31,318 nt of DNA, from IMG/VR virus record IMGVR_UViG_3300044568_000183, positions 1 to 31,318 of that record. One strand, written 5' to 3'. A program made the translations under genes and the position numbers. This document shows positions 26,214 to 30,660 of the stretch, piece after piece. Every line of letters starts with the position of its first letter. Position 1 is the stretch's first letter. Under the pieces are notes generated by a model. That model did no database searches, was not told where the DNA came from, and saw nothing but the letters and a program-made list of their open reading frames with translations. Source of the DNA: a virus.

Positions 26214-26460
26214 ATAGGTACTTATAAACATCGTGTAACTTTGCTGACGCCATGTCAACACTCTTGTATCTAACCGAGCCTGTCCTCTCGTTACTGTAGT
26301 ACTCCATCCCCGTGTCTCTGTCGTAGTGGAAGTCCTTGCCGTTTGATGTGATGCCACCCTTACGGATCGCTATCTTAAAGTAATAACTCTCAGGCTTGAT
26401 GTAAACCTGAAAGTCATTCTCTATGCACCACCTAAAATAATATGCTGTCTTCGGACTCAT
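26170..26460 (-). CDS. Small protein between primase and helicase
   Basis: The ATG at 26460 (MSPKTAYYFRWCIENDFQVY) is preferred; the codons upstream include only a TTG start. The 96-residue protein has strands with aromatic and basic residues (YYFKIAIRKGGITSN, TGSVRYKSVD) and a C-terminal helix (AKLHDVYKYLYEE). It overlaps the primase gene by 29 nt and the helicase gene by 44 nt, so all three are probably translated together. I do not recognise the family. Confidence 0.7.
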   Translation of the reverse strand: MSPKTAYYFRWCIENDFQVYIKPESYYFKIAIRKGGITSNGKDFHYDRDTGMEYYSNERTGSVRYKSVDMASAKLHDVYKYLYEENTKGLPVRPSR

Positions 26461-28834
26461 CCTTGCCAACGAATTTAATCCACATTCCTGTACTGCTCCT
26501 GCCCTCTATAGGCTTGACACCTGATATGTATATACCGTAGGAGATCAGCCAGTTATAGAACTCTGTCCTAGAGATAGTCCTCTTAGCCTTGGGCTGGAAG
26601 TCTGGGTTGTCCTGAATGAAGTCTATGTACAGATCCTGCTTGTATATAACCTCACCTAGCACCAGCTTGTCGCTGTGTGCCTCACCGTTGATCAGTCCAC
26701 ACCAGTCGATGAACTCGTGGCATGTGTCTGCAGATAGCTTACGTATCTTAAGGTTCACGAACTCGCTCTTGAGTAGCCCTGATGTGAGGTACCTCTGAAG
26801 GCTCTTTATCATGTAGTTGTCGAACCTGCACCACTCCTGCTCGTCCCACTCCGTGAACAGTAGCCTGCCGAACTCGACCTGTGGAGTGAACTCCTTGGTG
26901 TAGAACTGCTTGAACTCCAACTCCCACTTACGTCTCTCGAACGAGTTACCCTTACCCTTGATGGCGTAGTTGGTCGTGATGATGATCTTTGGCGACTTGT
27001 TGAATGGTATGTGCATGGCCTGTTGGTTCTTCCTCTCTAGGGTGATACCCTCTGTGATGATCGAGAAAAGCCTCTCGAAGTTGAAGTGCTTCTTAACGTC
27101 ATCAAACGCTAGCACCTGAGTATCAACCGATACCGTCTGAAACGGGAAACCACTGTCAAAGTTGATACTCTTTCCATCTATGAATGCTAGCTTCTTCATC
27201 TGCGATATCGCGTTGGTGAACAGTCCCTTTCCTGTTCCTCCCTCTGGGTTGTCTGTTATGACCTCGTCATTTAGAATGACCGCAGGACAGTAAGATAGAT
27301 TCTTATATCCGTGCAGAAGGAACCCAATAGTACTCTCAACCGAGTTAATCCTAACTGTATCATCGTCCGATATGTTTGAAATGAATGTCTTGAAGTCGCA
27401 GTCCTCTACCTCGCACAGGTCGAACTCCCTGTCTATCACCTGATCCTTCCATATGTAACCGCCCAGGTCTAGGTAGTCTATAATACTTATGGTGTCCTTG
27501 GTGATGTTTACCGCACAGTTCGTGTAGTAAAGGTACGCGTTGTTCTTGTTGTCCTCCATGAAGTGCACGTCAACCGATGACAGCAGAGACAGGAAGTCCT
27601 CCTTGAAGAACCTTGTCTTGTCAGCGAAGAAGTTGTACACAGAGAGGTCGTCCACATTCTGTAGGTAGTTGAGCACGAAGTCCTTGATCTCGTCCTCTGA
27701 CGTGTGGTCTATCAGGTTGTTTGTGACACGTACGAATATAAAACTCTTGTTACCAACGGGCATGTACTTGTAGAACCCGTTGTCCTCCAAGAAGTCCCTG
27801 AACATGTAGTGCACGATGCTTATGGATCCCTTGTCCGACTTGCTCCAGAACTTGTTGACCGACTCGTCCTTGTCTATAGAGTCTATCACCGAGTCTATCG
27901 TGAAGCTAGGCAGGTTGGTCTCTGACAGGTCTGACTTGATCTCCTTCTTGGACACCCCTCGCTTGATCTTCTGACGAACCTGATTGATCATGTCGTCGTC
28001 CTCGAAGTACTTGGATCCGATCGACCCCGTGTTCTTGTAGGCTGAGTTTATGATGGTCTGTATCTCTGACATCGGGTGCTTCTGACTCACGAACTGACTC
28101 ATCACATACTCAGACAGTGACTTGTTAACACCGTAATCGTTTAATGCTGAGGCTAGTATGAACATATTGTTGTTTCTCTTGCCGTCAACCATCGGGTAAT
28201 TCTTTGACCACCACCTCATCAGGATCTCTACAACCTTGTTGTCGTTCGTTATCGGTATGGTTGTTACACTGCTAGACCTGTCTAGTTCAACGTACTCTGC
28301 CTCCTCCAACCTGTCCCATAACCTAGAGTCCACGTTTATGTATATCTCTGGGTCGTACGACTCGTAGCACACCCTAGATATGTTCTTGGACGTGGTGTCG
28401 AAGTACTTGGAGTCGAAGTGTTTCTCTAGTGAGTTGAAGTAGTTCTTGTGGTTGTCTATGTCCGCAGGTATCTTCACGATCACCTTTAGCCCGTTACCTG
28501 ATGGCGACACGAACACTGAGTAGCTGTGAGCGTCCTCTGACAGCCTTACCTTGTCAGCTAGTAGGTCATCCTCGGTCTCGTACCCATCAAAGTCAAGGCA
28601 TATAAAACCACTGTGGTCTACGATGGCCTTGTCCTCACGCTTGTTGAAGGTACCTGAGAAGCAGACCGAAGGCAGATCCCTCTTTAGTAGGTTCCTCCTC
28701 TCCTTGTCTGACTCGGTGCGGATCGCCTCGACCTTGTCCCTTGAGGATCCGTCCTTGATCCTCTGTAGAACCACACCTATACCCCTGAAGAATGGTGTGT
28801 CTGTGCTCTTTATGTTTGAAAATATTGTTATCAT
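26432..28834 (-). CDS. Primase-helicase (VirE/BT4734-like N-terminus, PriCT, SF3 D5-like)
   Basis: This 800-residue replication protein has an N-terminal VirE/BT4734-like region (about 1-190; FICLDFDGYE, VFVSPSGNGLKVIVK, YDPEIYINVD) typical of Bacteroidota elements. A PriCT-like helical segment (NNMFILASALNDYGV) is near 215-270. The SF3/D5-type helicase has Walker A EGGTGKGLF near 530, Walker B LAFDDVKKHF near 576 and sensor IIITTNYAIKG near 624. It probably synthesises primers and unwinds the phage DNA. It is preceded by a 154-nt spacer with several inverted repeats and overlaps the next gene by 29 nt. Confidence 0.85.
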   Translation of the reverse strand: MITIFSNIKSTDTPFFRGIGVVLQRIKDGSSRDKVEAIRTESDKERRNLLKRDLPSVCFSGTFNKREDKAIVDHSGFICLDFDGYETEDDLLADKVRLSEDAHSYSVFVSPSGNGLKVIVKIPADIDNHKNYFNSLEKHFDSKYFDTTSKNISRVCYESYDPEIYINVDSRLWDRLEEAEYVELDRSSSVTTIPITNDNKVVEILMRWWSKNYPMVDGKRNNNMFILASALNDYGVNKSLSEYVMSQFVSQKHPMSEIQTIINSAYKNTGSIGSKYFEDDDMINQVRQKIKRGVSKKEIKSDLSETNLPSFTIDSVIDSIDKDESVNKFWSKSDKGSISIVHYMFRDFLEDNGFYKYMPVGNKSFIFVRVTNNLIDHTSEDEIKDFVLNYLQNVDDLSVYNFFADKTRFFKEDFLSLLSSVDVHFMEDNKNNAYLYYTNCAVNITKDTISIIDYLDLGGYIWKDQVIDREFDLCEVEDCDFKTFISNISDDDTVRINSVESTIGFLLHGYKNLSYCPAVILNDEVITDNPEGGTGKGLFTNAISQMKKLAFIDGKSINFDSGFPFQTVSVDTQVLAFDDVKKHFNFERLFSIITEGITLERKNQQAMHIPFNKSPKIIITTNYAIKGKGNSFERRKWELEFKQFYTKEFTPQVEFGRLLFTEWDEQEWCRFDNYMIKSLQRYLTSGLLKSEFVNLKIRKLSADTCHEFIDWCGLINGEAHSDKLVLGEVIYKQDLYIDFIQDNPDFQPKAKRTISRTEFYNWLISYGIYISGVKPIEGRSSTGMWIKFVGKDESEDSILF

Positions 28835-28988: not shown

Positions 28989-29315
28989 TTAGAATGGTAA
29001 ATCTGGGTCTGTAGTTACAGGCTCTGGTGCCTGTGTCTTCTTAGCGTCATCCCAATAGGATGTGAAACCCTCTCCGATGTAGACTGTGTCGGCCTTGGCC
29101 TCTCTCTCCTCCTTGGTCTGGATCACACACGCAAAGTGCGTCTTAACAATTCTCATCGTGTCCTTAGCAAAGATCTGCTTAGGCTCCTTAACCTCAACCA
29201 ACTCGAACTTAACCTCTTGTACATTTACATTTGTACCGTCCTTGCTCTCGTAACTTCTTGTAGAGATCAGGTTTCTTAACTTTGACGCGTCTAACGTCAC
29301 TTGAATTTTCGCCAT
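28989..29315 (-). CDS. SSB-like single-stranded DNA-binding protein
   Basis: This 108-residue protein starts MAKIQVTLDASKLRNLISTR and has strand-rich segments (VNVQEVKFELVEVKEPKQI, then FACVIQTKEEREA). It ends in a short disordered, acidic tail with the terminal sequence DPDLPF. That tail matches the SSB C-terminal signature (acidic residues then (I/L)PF) that recruits partner proteins. An OB-fold is plausible from the strand pattern but not proven. It lies between the recombination genes and the primase, a normal place for an SSB. It starts just after the RNA region's terminator. Confidence 0.65.
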   Translation of the reverse strand: MAKIQVTLDASKLRNLISTRSYESKDGTNVNVQEVKFELVEVKEPKQIFAKDTMRIVKTHFACVIQTKEEREAKADTVYIGEGFTSYWDDAKKTQAPEPVTTDPDLPF

Positions 29316-29368
29316 TTTATTAAATTTAATTTCGCCTACCTTTTTATTCTGTTGTCGGCTTTTCAGTT

Positions 29369-29419
29369 AAAAAAAAATGGCAGAGCTTGACCAGAAAATT
29401 GGTTCATACCTACTCTGCC
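29369..29419 (-). terminator. Strong intrinsic terminator of the tRNA/RNA region
   Basis: On the minus strand GGCAGAG (29413-29419) pairs with CTCTGCC (29379-29385), a 7-bp stem. A nested partial stem (ACCA/TGGT) lies inside it. A run of nine T follows at 29369-29377. It ends the transcript carrying the tRNA-like genes before the SSB gene. Confidence 0.85.
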
Positions 29420-29457
29420 TGACAGGTTTTCTTTTATGGTATCCACCAACCTGTAGG
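29418..29457 (-). ncRNA. Stem-loop with a 10-bp stem downstream of the tRNA-Leu-like gene
   Basis: CCTACAGGTT (minus strand, 29448-29457) pairs with AACCTGTCAGG (29418-29428) through ten base pairs with one bulged C. A small inner hairpin (GGTGGATACC) sits inside. It shares two bases with the terminator stem, so the two structures compete or stack. The function is unknown. The surrounding 29420-29523 also contains an ATCATC/GATGAT stem and no ORF of note. Confidence 0.55.
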
Positions 29458-29523
29458 ATCATCCGTGAGACTAGCTTCCTCCGATGATGGTTATCGTCCT
29501 AGTGCTAGATCAGATAACTGCTG

Positions 29524-29627
29524 TGATTGAGACAGGACTTGAACCTGTATGTTAATTCACGCTAAACTTAATCGCTACCTCTATTGTAATTAACTTTTTA
29601 TGCGTCTACCAATTCCGCCACTCAATC
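29524..29627 (-). tRNA. Oversized tRNA-Leu-like gene, anticodon unresolved
   Basis: Read on the minus strand, the acceptor stem is GATTGAG/CTCAATC (7 bp) with discriminator A. The D-arm GGCGGAATTGGTAGACGC is characteristic of tRNA-Leu. The T-arm is ACAGG-TTCAAGT-CCTGT. Between D- and T-arms there are 52 nt, about 20 more than a normal tRNA-Leu, and I cannot draw a standard 5-bp anticodon stem. Instead GTTAATT (29588-29594) and AATTAAC (29551-29557) form a 7-bp stem enclosing 30 nt. It may contain an insertion, have an unusual fold, or be a decayed tRNA. No CCA is encoded. Confidence 0.6.
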
Positions 29628-29704
29628 TGTACGGAGTTTTTGTTAATCTCTCTTAGGTTCTTCCGTTATTACCACTAAGTTCATTCAAGCGCTACTTGAC
29701 CTCG

Positions 29705-29776
29705 ATGCTGTGGCGGGACTCGAACCCGCATCTAGCCTATTAAACCAGGCCTATTCTACCGTTAAACTACACAACA
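29705..29776 (-). tRNA. tRNA with Gly-like body and an odd anticodon loop
   Basis: Read on the minus strand, the acceptor stem TGTTGTG/CACAGCA (one G-T pair) has discriminator T. The D-arm GTTTAACGGTAGAAT and T-arm GCGGG-TTCGAGT-CCCGC resemble tRNA-Gly. The anticodon stem GGCCT/AGGCT pairs fully only if the loop is 8 nt (GGTTTAAT), not 7. Placing U33 before a purine 37 gives an apparent UUA anticodon, which would read UAA. TAA is a common stop codon in this phage, so I do not assert an ochre suppressor. A Gly anticodon (TCC or GCC) does not fit the loop. No CCA is encoded. Confidence 0.65.
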
Positions 29777-29777
29777 C

Positions 29778-29910
29778 TACCAACCTGTGTCTTTCTTGTA
29801 GCTTTCCTCGTTAACAGTTACGGAGCTTATACAAGATCAAGGTTTCTGGTTTGCTGATCGTACTATAAACCCTTTTTCGTATGTCGTCAGCCTAACAGTT
29901 AGCGTTGGTA
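29778..29910 (-). ncRNA. Structured 133-nt RNA leader before the tRNA
   Basis: The ends form a perfect 7-bp stem, TACCAAC (29904-29910) with GTTGGTA (29778-29784). The closed region contains more complementary arms on the minus strand: GCTGA/TCAGC, and CTTGTA/TACAAG with further partial pairing inside. This gives a multibranch layout. It begins just after a TATATTTG promoter-like box and ends 1 nt before the tRNA 5' end. It holds no ORF I can support. It may be a stable phage ncRNA or a processing leader. Confidence 0.5.
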
Positions 29911-29918
29911 ATCCGCAA

Positions 29919-29926
29919 CAAATATA
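29919..29926 (-). promoter_or_regulatory. -7 box TATATTTG for the RNA region
   Basis: On the minus strand TATATTTG matches TAnnTTTG. It sits just upstream of the structured leader, beside a perfect 12-nt palindrome AACAAATTTGTT (29928-29939) that also overlaps the exonuclease stop codon. A TTTG lies 14 nt upstream of the box, shorter than the usual -33 spacing. It would drive a ~540-nt transcript ending at the terminator at 29369. Confidence 0.55.
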
Positions 29927-29937
29927 CAACAAATTTG

Positions 29938-30660
29938 TTACAAATCTTCCCTTATGAAGAAATTATTTATGTCCTCCTTAGGACTGTCTCCAAAGAACTT
30001 TTCGTAGACCTCTACCGCACGTAGCACCTTCTCTCTGCCTCCTAGTAGGAACTCTGCACTAGGTTCGAACACACCCAACTCATGCGTAGTCTTATCTATT
30101 ACGTAGAAAATCAAGGGTTTATCAAAGAACTGCTGATACAAATAAGACTGCGAGTCGTAGTTGTACTTCTTTGCCGACCACCTGAAGTCAGAGATCTTTG
30201 ACGTGGTCTTGATGTCAATAATAATCTCGTCTGTCACAATGTCTGCCTTTCCCTTGAACTTATGTCCGAACAACTCCATGATGGCGGGTTCCTCGTACAC
30301 GTTACCGTCCTTGTAGATGTTCTCGTAAAAGAAGAAGTTCGACTTAATCACGCGAACCATCTCGTCTAGGTTGTCACACTCATTCCTCAGGAGGAGTAGG
30401 TTGCCCTTGGACGCGTCCTTGTATATGTTTGTGTTACGAGTACTCGCCTCCACTATCTCAAAGTTGGCCAACTTCTCAGGCTCCAATATGGCCGTGTGGA
30501 AGTAGCTACCCTGTAGCATAGGAACCGTCGGCTCCTGCTTCACCTTAAACATCTTAGGGTTACTTAATAGTACACCCACTGCGCTATTACTTAGGAACTG
30601 CGATCCGTAGTCCCCGTAGTAGTCTTTGTCATTTCTTAGTCTATCCAACATATTTCCCAA
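29938..30660 (-). CDS. PD-(D/E)XK exonuclease (RecB/RecE-like)
   Basis: This 240-residue protein shows the RecB/exonuclease VIII-type nuclease pattern: G51-x-x-x-H55 in QGSYFHTAILEP, E124, D140 in KGKADIVTDE, D149-x-K151 in IIIDIKTT, and a downstream Gln/Tyr motif in YDSQSYLYQQF. It probably resects DNA ends for the annealing protein encoded just before it. It overlaps that gene's end by 20 nt. An alternative start at the fourth residue (ATG at 30651) is possible. The two genes form a phage recombination pair. Confidence 0.82.
   Translation of the reverse strand: MGNMLDRLRNDKDYYGDYGSQFLSNSAVGVLLSNPKMFKVKQEPTVPMLQGSYFHTAILEPEKLANFEIVEASTRNTNIYKDASKGNLLLLRNECDNLDEMVRVIKSNFFFYENIYKDGNVYEEPAIMELFGHKFKGKADIVTDEIIIDIKTTSKISDFRWSAKKYNYDSQSYLYQQFFDKPLIFYVIDKTTHELGVFEPSAEFLLGGREKVLRAVEVYEKFFGDSPKEDINNFFIREDL

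Follow-up and report, generated by a model that had tools for sequence, protein, structure and literature searches.

A 133-nt segment of the analysed DNA belongs to an undescribed, phage-borne family of compact structured RNAs, designated RNA1 here. This view, which covers the identity, structure, circular permutation and phage restriction of the family, is held with a probability of about 0.95. The window (the whole stretch of DNA that was analysed, 31,318 bases) is an IMG/VR virus record, and its genes indicate a phage of Bacteroidota; the markers include a BT4734-like primase protein, a Sak annealing protein, a PDDEXK protein and the TATATTTG box. No descriptions of RNA1, or of a second structured RNA (RNA2) in the same operon, were found in the open-access papers; both are called new here in the sense that they are neither in Rfam 15 nor in the open-access literature searched.

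The RNA-only operon of the window

From 29926 to 29369, the minus strand carries in order the box, the 133-nt segment, a tRNA, a Leu-like tRNA-like gene, and about 145 nt that end with a stem and a T run. The features are:

29919-29926, minus: promoter-like -7 box TATATTTG, by sequence match to TAnnTTTG
29778-29910, minus: RNA1, a 133-nt family member in the helix-D-open permutation (blastn homologues, covariation, covariance-model match)
29705-29776, minus: tRNA gene with an enlarged anticodon loop (Rfam 46.5 bits; tRNA-??? in ARAGORN)
29524-29627, minus: Leu-like tRNA-like RNA with a non-standard anticodon region (Rfam 42.3 bits; uncalled by ARAGORN)
29379-29523, minus: RNA2, the second structured RNA (homologues at L017, L011, L179, L206 and L208 plus a distant group; covariation)
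29419-29413 and 29385-29379, minus: terminator GGCAGAG / CTCTGCC followed by a T run, by sequence; also the last helix of RNA2

The -7 promoter consensus of Bacteroidota is TAnnTTTG, and the TATATTTG box fits it. The interval 29315-29938 contains no ORF that reaches 60 aa. This would be a short RNA-only operon, in which the TATATTTG promoter is followed by RNA1 at the head, the tRNA, the tRNA-like RNA, RNA2 and the terminator; the transcription start is predicted at about the first base of RNA1 helix D. The initial annotation had proposed the promoter-like box, a minus-strand terminator (29369-29419), two tRNA-like genes and the lack of a good ORF, and these are borne out; both tRNA-like genes are matched by Rfam, and ARAGORN calls only the one at 29705-29776. 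At the gathering threshold, Rfam 15 gave only tRNA matches in the window.

The folding-energy z values were -0.86 for 29778-29912, -2.1 for 29369-29458 and +0.77 for 29630-29703. The last segment is a spacer of the same operon; no homologue of it was found, it is without RNA1-like conservation, and the TCAAG/CTTGA hairpin that had been pointed out there (29685-29699) is at chance level. Energy-based detection misses RNA1, and only comparison reveals it. The earlier claim of more pairing than in tRNA spacers is thus right by comparison, for both RNA1 and RNA2, and does not hold by folding energy for RNA1. A previously undescribed structured phage RNA had also been suggested, and the region supports this twice, with RNA1 and RNA2. 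Covariation in homologues, which had been put forward as a check, is present in the RNA1 helices across 75 diverse cores, and RNA2 shows compensatory changes.

Structure and distribution of RNA1

The elements of RNA1 in the window are as follows:

29904-29910, minus: helix D 5' strand TACCAAC, the closing stem, pairing with 29778-29784; kept in close relatives
29896-29898, minus: helix E 5' strand CUG, followed by the conserved bulge UUAG (29892-29895)
29887-29891, minus: helix A 5' strand GCUGA, pairing with 29853-29857
29873-29878, minus: GAAAAA (GAAWAA or GAACAA in the family), by conservation
29867-29872, minus: helix B 5' strand GGGUUU, pseudoknot, by covariation, with the pairing of B left free in the search
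29861-29865, minus: UAGUA, by conservation
29853-29857, minus: helix A 3' strand UCAGC, by covariation
29846-29848, minus: helix E 3' strand CAG, preceded by the conserved AAAC (29849-29852)
29839-29845, minus: helix B 3' strand AAACCUU, crossing E and A, by covariation
29795-29835, minus: hairpin C, CUUGU / ACAAG with inner AGCU/AGCU, with compensatory versions in close relatives
29786-29794, minus: single strand AAAGACACA (AACACCCA or AAGACCC in the family), by conservation
29778-29784, minus: helix D 3' strand GTTGGTA, pairing with 29904-29910

Helix D is the perfect 7-bp closing stem of the initial annotation, and unrelated yet complementary strands replace its sequence in other members. 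The circular order of the family is: D 3' strand, E (CUG or CUC), UUAG, A, an optional loop, F, GAAWAA, B, N-UAGUA, F, A, AAAC, E (CAG or GAG), B, UG, hairpin C, ACACCCA, and D 5' strand. Helices E, A and F are nested, and helix B crosses them as a pseudoknot. In the fold, helix D is closed, E and A stack continuously, and the B pseudoknot connects the loop on the A side with the strand that follows E on its 3' side. The unpaired invariant bases are GAAWAA, UAGUA, AAAC, UUAG and ACCC(A); the GAA and AGUA beside helix F may resemble a bulged-G (loop E) motif. The compensatory versions of hairpin C in close relatives are CATG/CATG and AGCC/GGCT, and the hairpin is missing or different in other members.

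Covariation was counted in the cores of 75 diverse members, which were cut into a common rotated register; L114 was left out, its partner strand being part of a tRNA. The core pairs in 96.2% of the cells, against 68.8% with shuffled partners and 31-44% with partners slid by 1-3 columns. Double changes occur in 14 of the 18 pairs, and both sides are changed in 5 of the 7 helix B pairs. Nearly every standard pair type is found at the inner positions of helix A, and helix E is CUG/CAG in 61 cores and CUC/GAG in 14. Members had been accepted partly on pairing, and therefore a separate unbiased count was made using a pattern with B and CTGTTAG left free. Among the 65 distinct matches, all six B positions pair in 58 and five of the six in another four; the three exceptions are a coding family (L092, L094, L109 and copies), which fits the pattern, has only three of the six B pairs and no CTGTTAG, and was excluded from RNA1. 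Exactly one CTGTTAG lies within 255 nt in 58 of the 62 B-pairing matches, and helix A is then complete (6/6) in 43 of these 58. Helix F holds in the permutation whose 5' end it closes, with 67 of 71 members pairing at its first two pairs and shuffles reaching no more than 51 and 40; it does not hold in the RNA1 of the window. The shuffle and slide controls ignore the tree; with pair types and phage groups as diverse as these, relatedness probably does not explain the covariation.

Sequence inspection showed that the family comprises three circular permutations. The CUGUUAG strand is downstream of the core in 71 of 98 members and upstream in 27. The chain opens between A and F in most members (71/98). 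It opens at helix D in the window, L002, L006 and L147 (coliphage mogra); other helix D strands include GCGG/CCGC in mogra and TTATTAAC/GTTAATAA in Pectobacterium phage PM2. It opens at helix C in L019 (ATTAGTACCTCT/AGAGGTACTAAT), L053 (AAGGCTTCC/GGAAGCCTT) and L118. The natural circular permutations listed in a 2023 paper are those of the hammerhead and twister ribozymes, 5S rRNA and group II introns (PMC10085705). Natural permutation indicates that the position of the chain ends does not matter for RNA1, and such independence of the termini is supportive, though not defining, of self-cleaving ribozymes.

Relatives of RNA1 were found at no fewer than about 90 distinct loci, in T4-like, T5-like, P100/A511-like Listeria, Vequintavirinae, jumbo Klebsiella (RaK2) and Bacteroidota phages. 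The blastn search with the window region matched Flavobacterium phage immuto (79.5% over 78 nt), at least 50 Listeria phages and at least six Vibrio phages, in unannotated DNA within tRNA clusters; the 133-nt segment alone also matched Bacillus phage Eldridge and PM2. Queries from other members added the T4-like coliphages mogra and FL31, the T5-like Stubb, My1 and IME260, the Vequintavirinae VLCpiM5b and Hena1, the jumbo phages RaK2 and K64-1, and Rhizobium and Providencia phages. None of the phage records examined annotates RNA1, and the overlapping features are a hypothetical protein or the neighbouring gene. Pattern scans of IMG/VR gave 70, 92 and 17 stretches. The lengths range from 72 to 135 nt, and minimal members have about 72 nt (L026). 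The core covariance model R1, built partly on the window sequence, matched the window at 29838-29882 (59.9 bits, E = 5e-12). It found exactly one copy per record in the 15 phage or genome records searched whole, including phages of 346-382 kb, and no match in the T4 genome.

RNA1 is almost restricted to phages. It was absent from 5,426 E. coli genomes (mogra query) and from the plasmid collection (Vibrio-type query), and was present in one of 392 genomes of one bacterial phylum, that one being the seed itself. A pattern scan of 84,980 species genomes matched 24 bacterial contigs; roughly seven of these, mostly metagenome bins, are true members as judged by a pairing test (L126, L128, L129, L131, L133, L135 and L144), which the others fail.

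A same-strand tRNA lies within 1.5 kb in 56 of 97 instances, often 3-7 nt off, and no tRNA was detected within this distance in the other 41. The tRNAs near RNA1 number 229 on the same strand and none on the opposite strand. RNA1 also occurs downstream of protein genes, ahead of terminators and within a group I intron. The next transcribed feature after RNA1 is a tRNA, a tmRNA or a terminator in the window and many relatives. For example, a permuted, two-piece tmRNA of the alphaproteobacterial type lies directly 3' of RNA1 at L025 (2180-2642) and L026 (9022-9425). Compared with phages ATK47 and JS09, mogra has a clean insertion of about 96 nt with RNA1 between tRNA-Met and tRNA-Arg, the DNA being otherwise nearly identical. 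RNA1 thus behaves as an accessory cassette, present or absent, in Mosigvirus coliphages, and these loci (L147 versus L177 and L178) provide a natural experiment on its presence. In Klebsiella phage VLCpiM5b (L150), RNA1 (about 1475-1582) is located inside a group I intron (Rfam 1360-1664) that splits the DNA polymerase gene into two fragments. It is closed there by CTTGTC/GACAAG and looks to be in the P6 loop of the intron; the P6 loop of phage introns often carries an endonuclease ORF.

Very abundant noncoding RNAs near the tRNAs are reported for Listeria phage CKA15, where the noncoding region 26,236-26,727 accounts for up to two thirds of the late phage transcripts (PMC12282133). The RNA1 of CKA15 (L146) is at 30,573-30,617, about 4 kb away within the same tRNA cluster; as the coordinates differ, this transcriptome was rejected as evidence for RNA1 expression.

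RNA2 and the tRNA-like gene

The stems of RNA2 in the window include:

29513-29518, minus: stem 1 5' strand GUUAUC, pairing with 29490-29495; four of the six pairs changed on both sides in relatives
29460-29463, minus: stem 3 3' strand, pairing with 29483-29486, by covariation
29422-29454, minus: stem ACAGGTT/AACCTGT; GTAGG/CCTGC and GTAGG/CCTAC in relatives

The last of these (29454-29448 with 29428-29422), together with inner pairs, is the stem-loop reported at first as 10 bp at 29418-29457. Homologues of RNA2 with 78-84% identity occur at L017 (660-750) and L011 (2691-2811), and others at L179, L206 and L208; a more distant group comprises about 29 contigs, and the loci include L023, L028 and L179-L208. 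BLAST revealed nothing convincing in isolated phages, the weak matches covering the terminator-like 3' end of the query. Stems 1, 3 and 4 pair in 100% of the cells, against 31-51% when slid, and 8 of the 13 pairs are changed on both sides, in 14 sequences with only a small number of independent events. Stems 1 and 4 have complementary loops that, by eye, change in concert (CTAGC/GCTAG, TTAGC/GCTAA, CAAAT/ATTTG, GCAAA/TTTGC), which is a predicted kissing interaction. A pistol-like topology was rejected for RNA2, since the 3' hairpin loop pairs back with the stem-1 loop as kissing loops. L017 and L011 have compensatory changes in both the 29422-29454 stem and the terminator stem, with no T run after the latter; the last helix, GGCAGAG/CTCTGCC, doubles as the putative terminator in the window.

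In the 25 true sequences tabulated, RNA2 starts directly after the 3' end of a tRNA, a tRNA-like gene or a tmRNA; the 3' end was recognised from the acceptor-strand sequence just ahead of RNA2 and, for genes called by them, from ARAGORN or Rfam. For example, it directly follows a tmRNA at L189, L196, L201 and L205, yet it is no part of the tmRNA. The theta ribozymes also start exactly at tRNA 3' ends, whereas RNA2 is without the HDV-like strand order. The tRNA-processing leader of the initial annotation may still apply to RNA2, whose start is an exact tRNA or tmRNA 3' end.

The Rfam tRNA match of the Leu-like gene has a long unaligned insert in the anticodon region; the gene lacks a seven-base anticodon loop with a defined anticodon, and ARAGORN reports no tRNA. 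In nine relatives, the acceptor stem (GATTGAG/CTCAATC) and the T arm show little or no variation and the D arm can be recognised; the anticodon region is hypervariable, giving overall lengths of 69-111 nt. Judged by its sequence, the Leu-like gene is not a normal tRNA; different from a tmRNA, it has no tag ORF recognised by ARAGORN. Similar tRNA-like genes occur at L180, L181, L184, L185, L195, L198, L199 and L203, some of only 69 nt. Genes with such a hypervariable anticodon region may be tRNA mimics rather than decoding tRNAs. Phage tmRNAs with unusual long tag peptides (such as ANAQIEANMNKVFSLLGEEVAVAA) were observed at L180, L196, L201, L205, L087 and L028.

Possible functions of RNA1

The activity of RNA1 would be carried by the fold itself, independent of where the chain starts or ends. 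Self-cleavage is the tentative first choice of mechanism, with a trans-acting aptamer or decoy as a close second. The core would most likely cleave itself, by which neighbouring RNAs of the transcript are separated or a defined end is released. The full account, in which a family member at the operon head has a fold-borne activity that is most likely core self-cleavage, is given a little less than an even chance. The free choice of chain ends, together with the host-independent invariant core, favours catalysis. Moreover, phages whose hosts belong to many phyla have the invariant unpaired core in common, and this speaks for an activity intrinsic to the RNA rather than for a partner specific to one host. 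The release of tRNAs cannot be the general role, because 41 of the 97 instances have no tRNA within 1.5 kb. The location in a P6-like loop argues against a ribozyme, since an essential gene depends on this intron and self-cleavage would sever the intron; nevertheless, trans-splicing is still possible for phage introns that are interrupted in P6. A wider version is possible as well, though we trust it less: RNA1 may be a new ribozyme class with three permutations, found in phages of many phyla and even within a group I intron, while RNA2 sets or uses the 3' ends of tRNAs and tmRNAs.

Alternatively, RNA1 could be a free-standing, trans-acting binding module (aptamer, decoy or sponge) with one copy per genome, carried in any stable RNA at hand such as a tRNA array, a 3' UTR or an excised intron. 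Its target might be the ribosome or another host RNA enzyme, a small molecule or an alarm nucleotide, in any case something broadly conserved. This explanation, also short of an even chance, ranks next. The single copy, the cassette behaviour between two tRNAs of near-identical E. coli phages and the intron setting favour such a binder, and one copy per genome is at least as compatible with an RNA acting in trans as with a repeated processing device. The occurrence in tRNA arrays, before terminators and in the intron loop, the aptamer-like conservation of unpaired bases, and the permutations, by which the ends are irrelevant, are also consistent with it. However, the hosts span several phyla and the target must then be near universal; moreover, there is no precedent with this fold among the described phage RNAs.

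It is unlikely that RNA1 lacks its own activity and serves in the processing or stability of phage tRNA operons, as a leader or spacer that host RNases recognise. The 56 instances with a nearby same-strand tRNA agree with this role, which the initial annotation had offered, whereas the other 41 and those after protein genes, before terminators and in the group I intron do not. Furthermore, host RNases vary between phyla and the invariant core does not, and the spacer 29630-29703 of the same operon shows no such conservation.

There is very little chance that RNA1 is an unrecognised theta (HDV-like), hammerhead, twister, pistol or hatchet ribozyme, a GOLLD, a ROOL, a tmRNA piece, a Y RNA or the T4 RNA C or D. 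The habitat in tRNA clusters is common to RNA1, theta ribozymes, GOLLD, ROOL and T4 RNA C and D. Nevertheless, no Rfam 15 match overlaps RNA1; in a permissive search it was unmatched up to E = 5 in the window and E = 3 in six relatives, save for weak sub-threshold or unrelated matches. The strand order and conserved bases are also unlike the HDV, pistol and hammerhead cores. T4 RNA C and D, theta ribozymes, GOLLD/ROOL, Y RNA and ToxI-like antitoxins were considered as identities and not adopted.

The theta ribozymes are HDV-like, occur next to tRNAs in Caudoviricetes and are rare in bacterial genomes (Kienbeck et al. 2024, PMC10879173). They share with RNA1 that they are small pseudoknotted Caudoviricetes RNAs, linked to tRNAs and almost absent from bacterial genomes; RNA1, in contrast, occurs in circular permutations, need not lie at the tRNA 3' end, has another strand order and other conserved bases, and ranges well past the phages of gut Bacteroidota and Bacillota. 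The HDV-like ribozyme is a nested double pseudoknot (P1-P2-P3-P1'-P4-P2') that cleaves at the 5' end of P1 and has its catalytic C in J4/2. RNA1 has the order E5-A5-B5-A3-E3-B3-(C)-(D) in three permutations and no Rfam HDV match, and the placing of theta cleavage sites, at most 5 nt from a tRNA 3' end, is not a rule of the RNA1 family, given the 41 instances away from tRNAs.

The hammerhead is a three-way junction with a CUGANGA and GAAA core and a NUH cleavage site. RNA1 contains CUGUUAG and GAAWAA, but it has the crossing helix B, no such three-way core and no Rfam match. The hammerhead (types I/II/III) and twister (P1/P3/P5) ribozymes resemble RNA1 in having three permutations, with any of three peripheral helices open, and a compact conserved core; however, RNA1 has the pseudoknot B across E and A and a CUGUUAG...GAAWAA...UAGUA...AAACCAG core, and is only a candidate for cleavage. 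GOLLD and ROOL, like RNA1, are structured phage RNAs near tRNA islands; they have several hundred nt and form multimeric cages (PMC12286853), whereas RNA1 has 72-135 nt and an unrelated sequence. T4 RNA C and D are small stable RNAs that, like RNA1, lie in the tRNA cluster of a T4-like phage; however, the RNA1 model has no match in T4, and RNA C has a tRNA T arm, which RNA1 does not. Finally, chance pairing in an AT-rich tRNA spacer, which would suit the modest energy z of the 133-nt segment, is refuted by covariation and conservation across many phage groups and is given practically no weight.

RNA1 has much invariant and covarying structure and belongs to no known family, yet it is carried by well-studied phages such as P100 and A511 of Listeria, RaK2 of Klebsiella and T4-like coliphages on K-12, which indicates substantial unexplained phage biology. 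The pair of mogra, with the cassette, and ATK47, without it, makes the question directly testable. The RNA2 and the tRNA-like gene with its hypervariable anticodon region raise a second question, that of a phage activity at tRNA 3' ends. If RNA1 binds something, the target would be common to bacterial phyla. If it cleaves itself, it would be a new class in the short list of natural ribozymes, and the third self-cleaving class with natural circular permutations after the hammerhead and twister.
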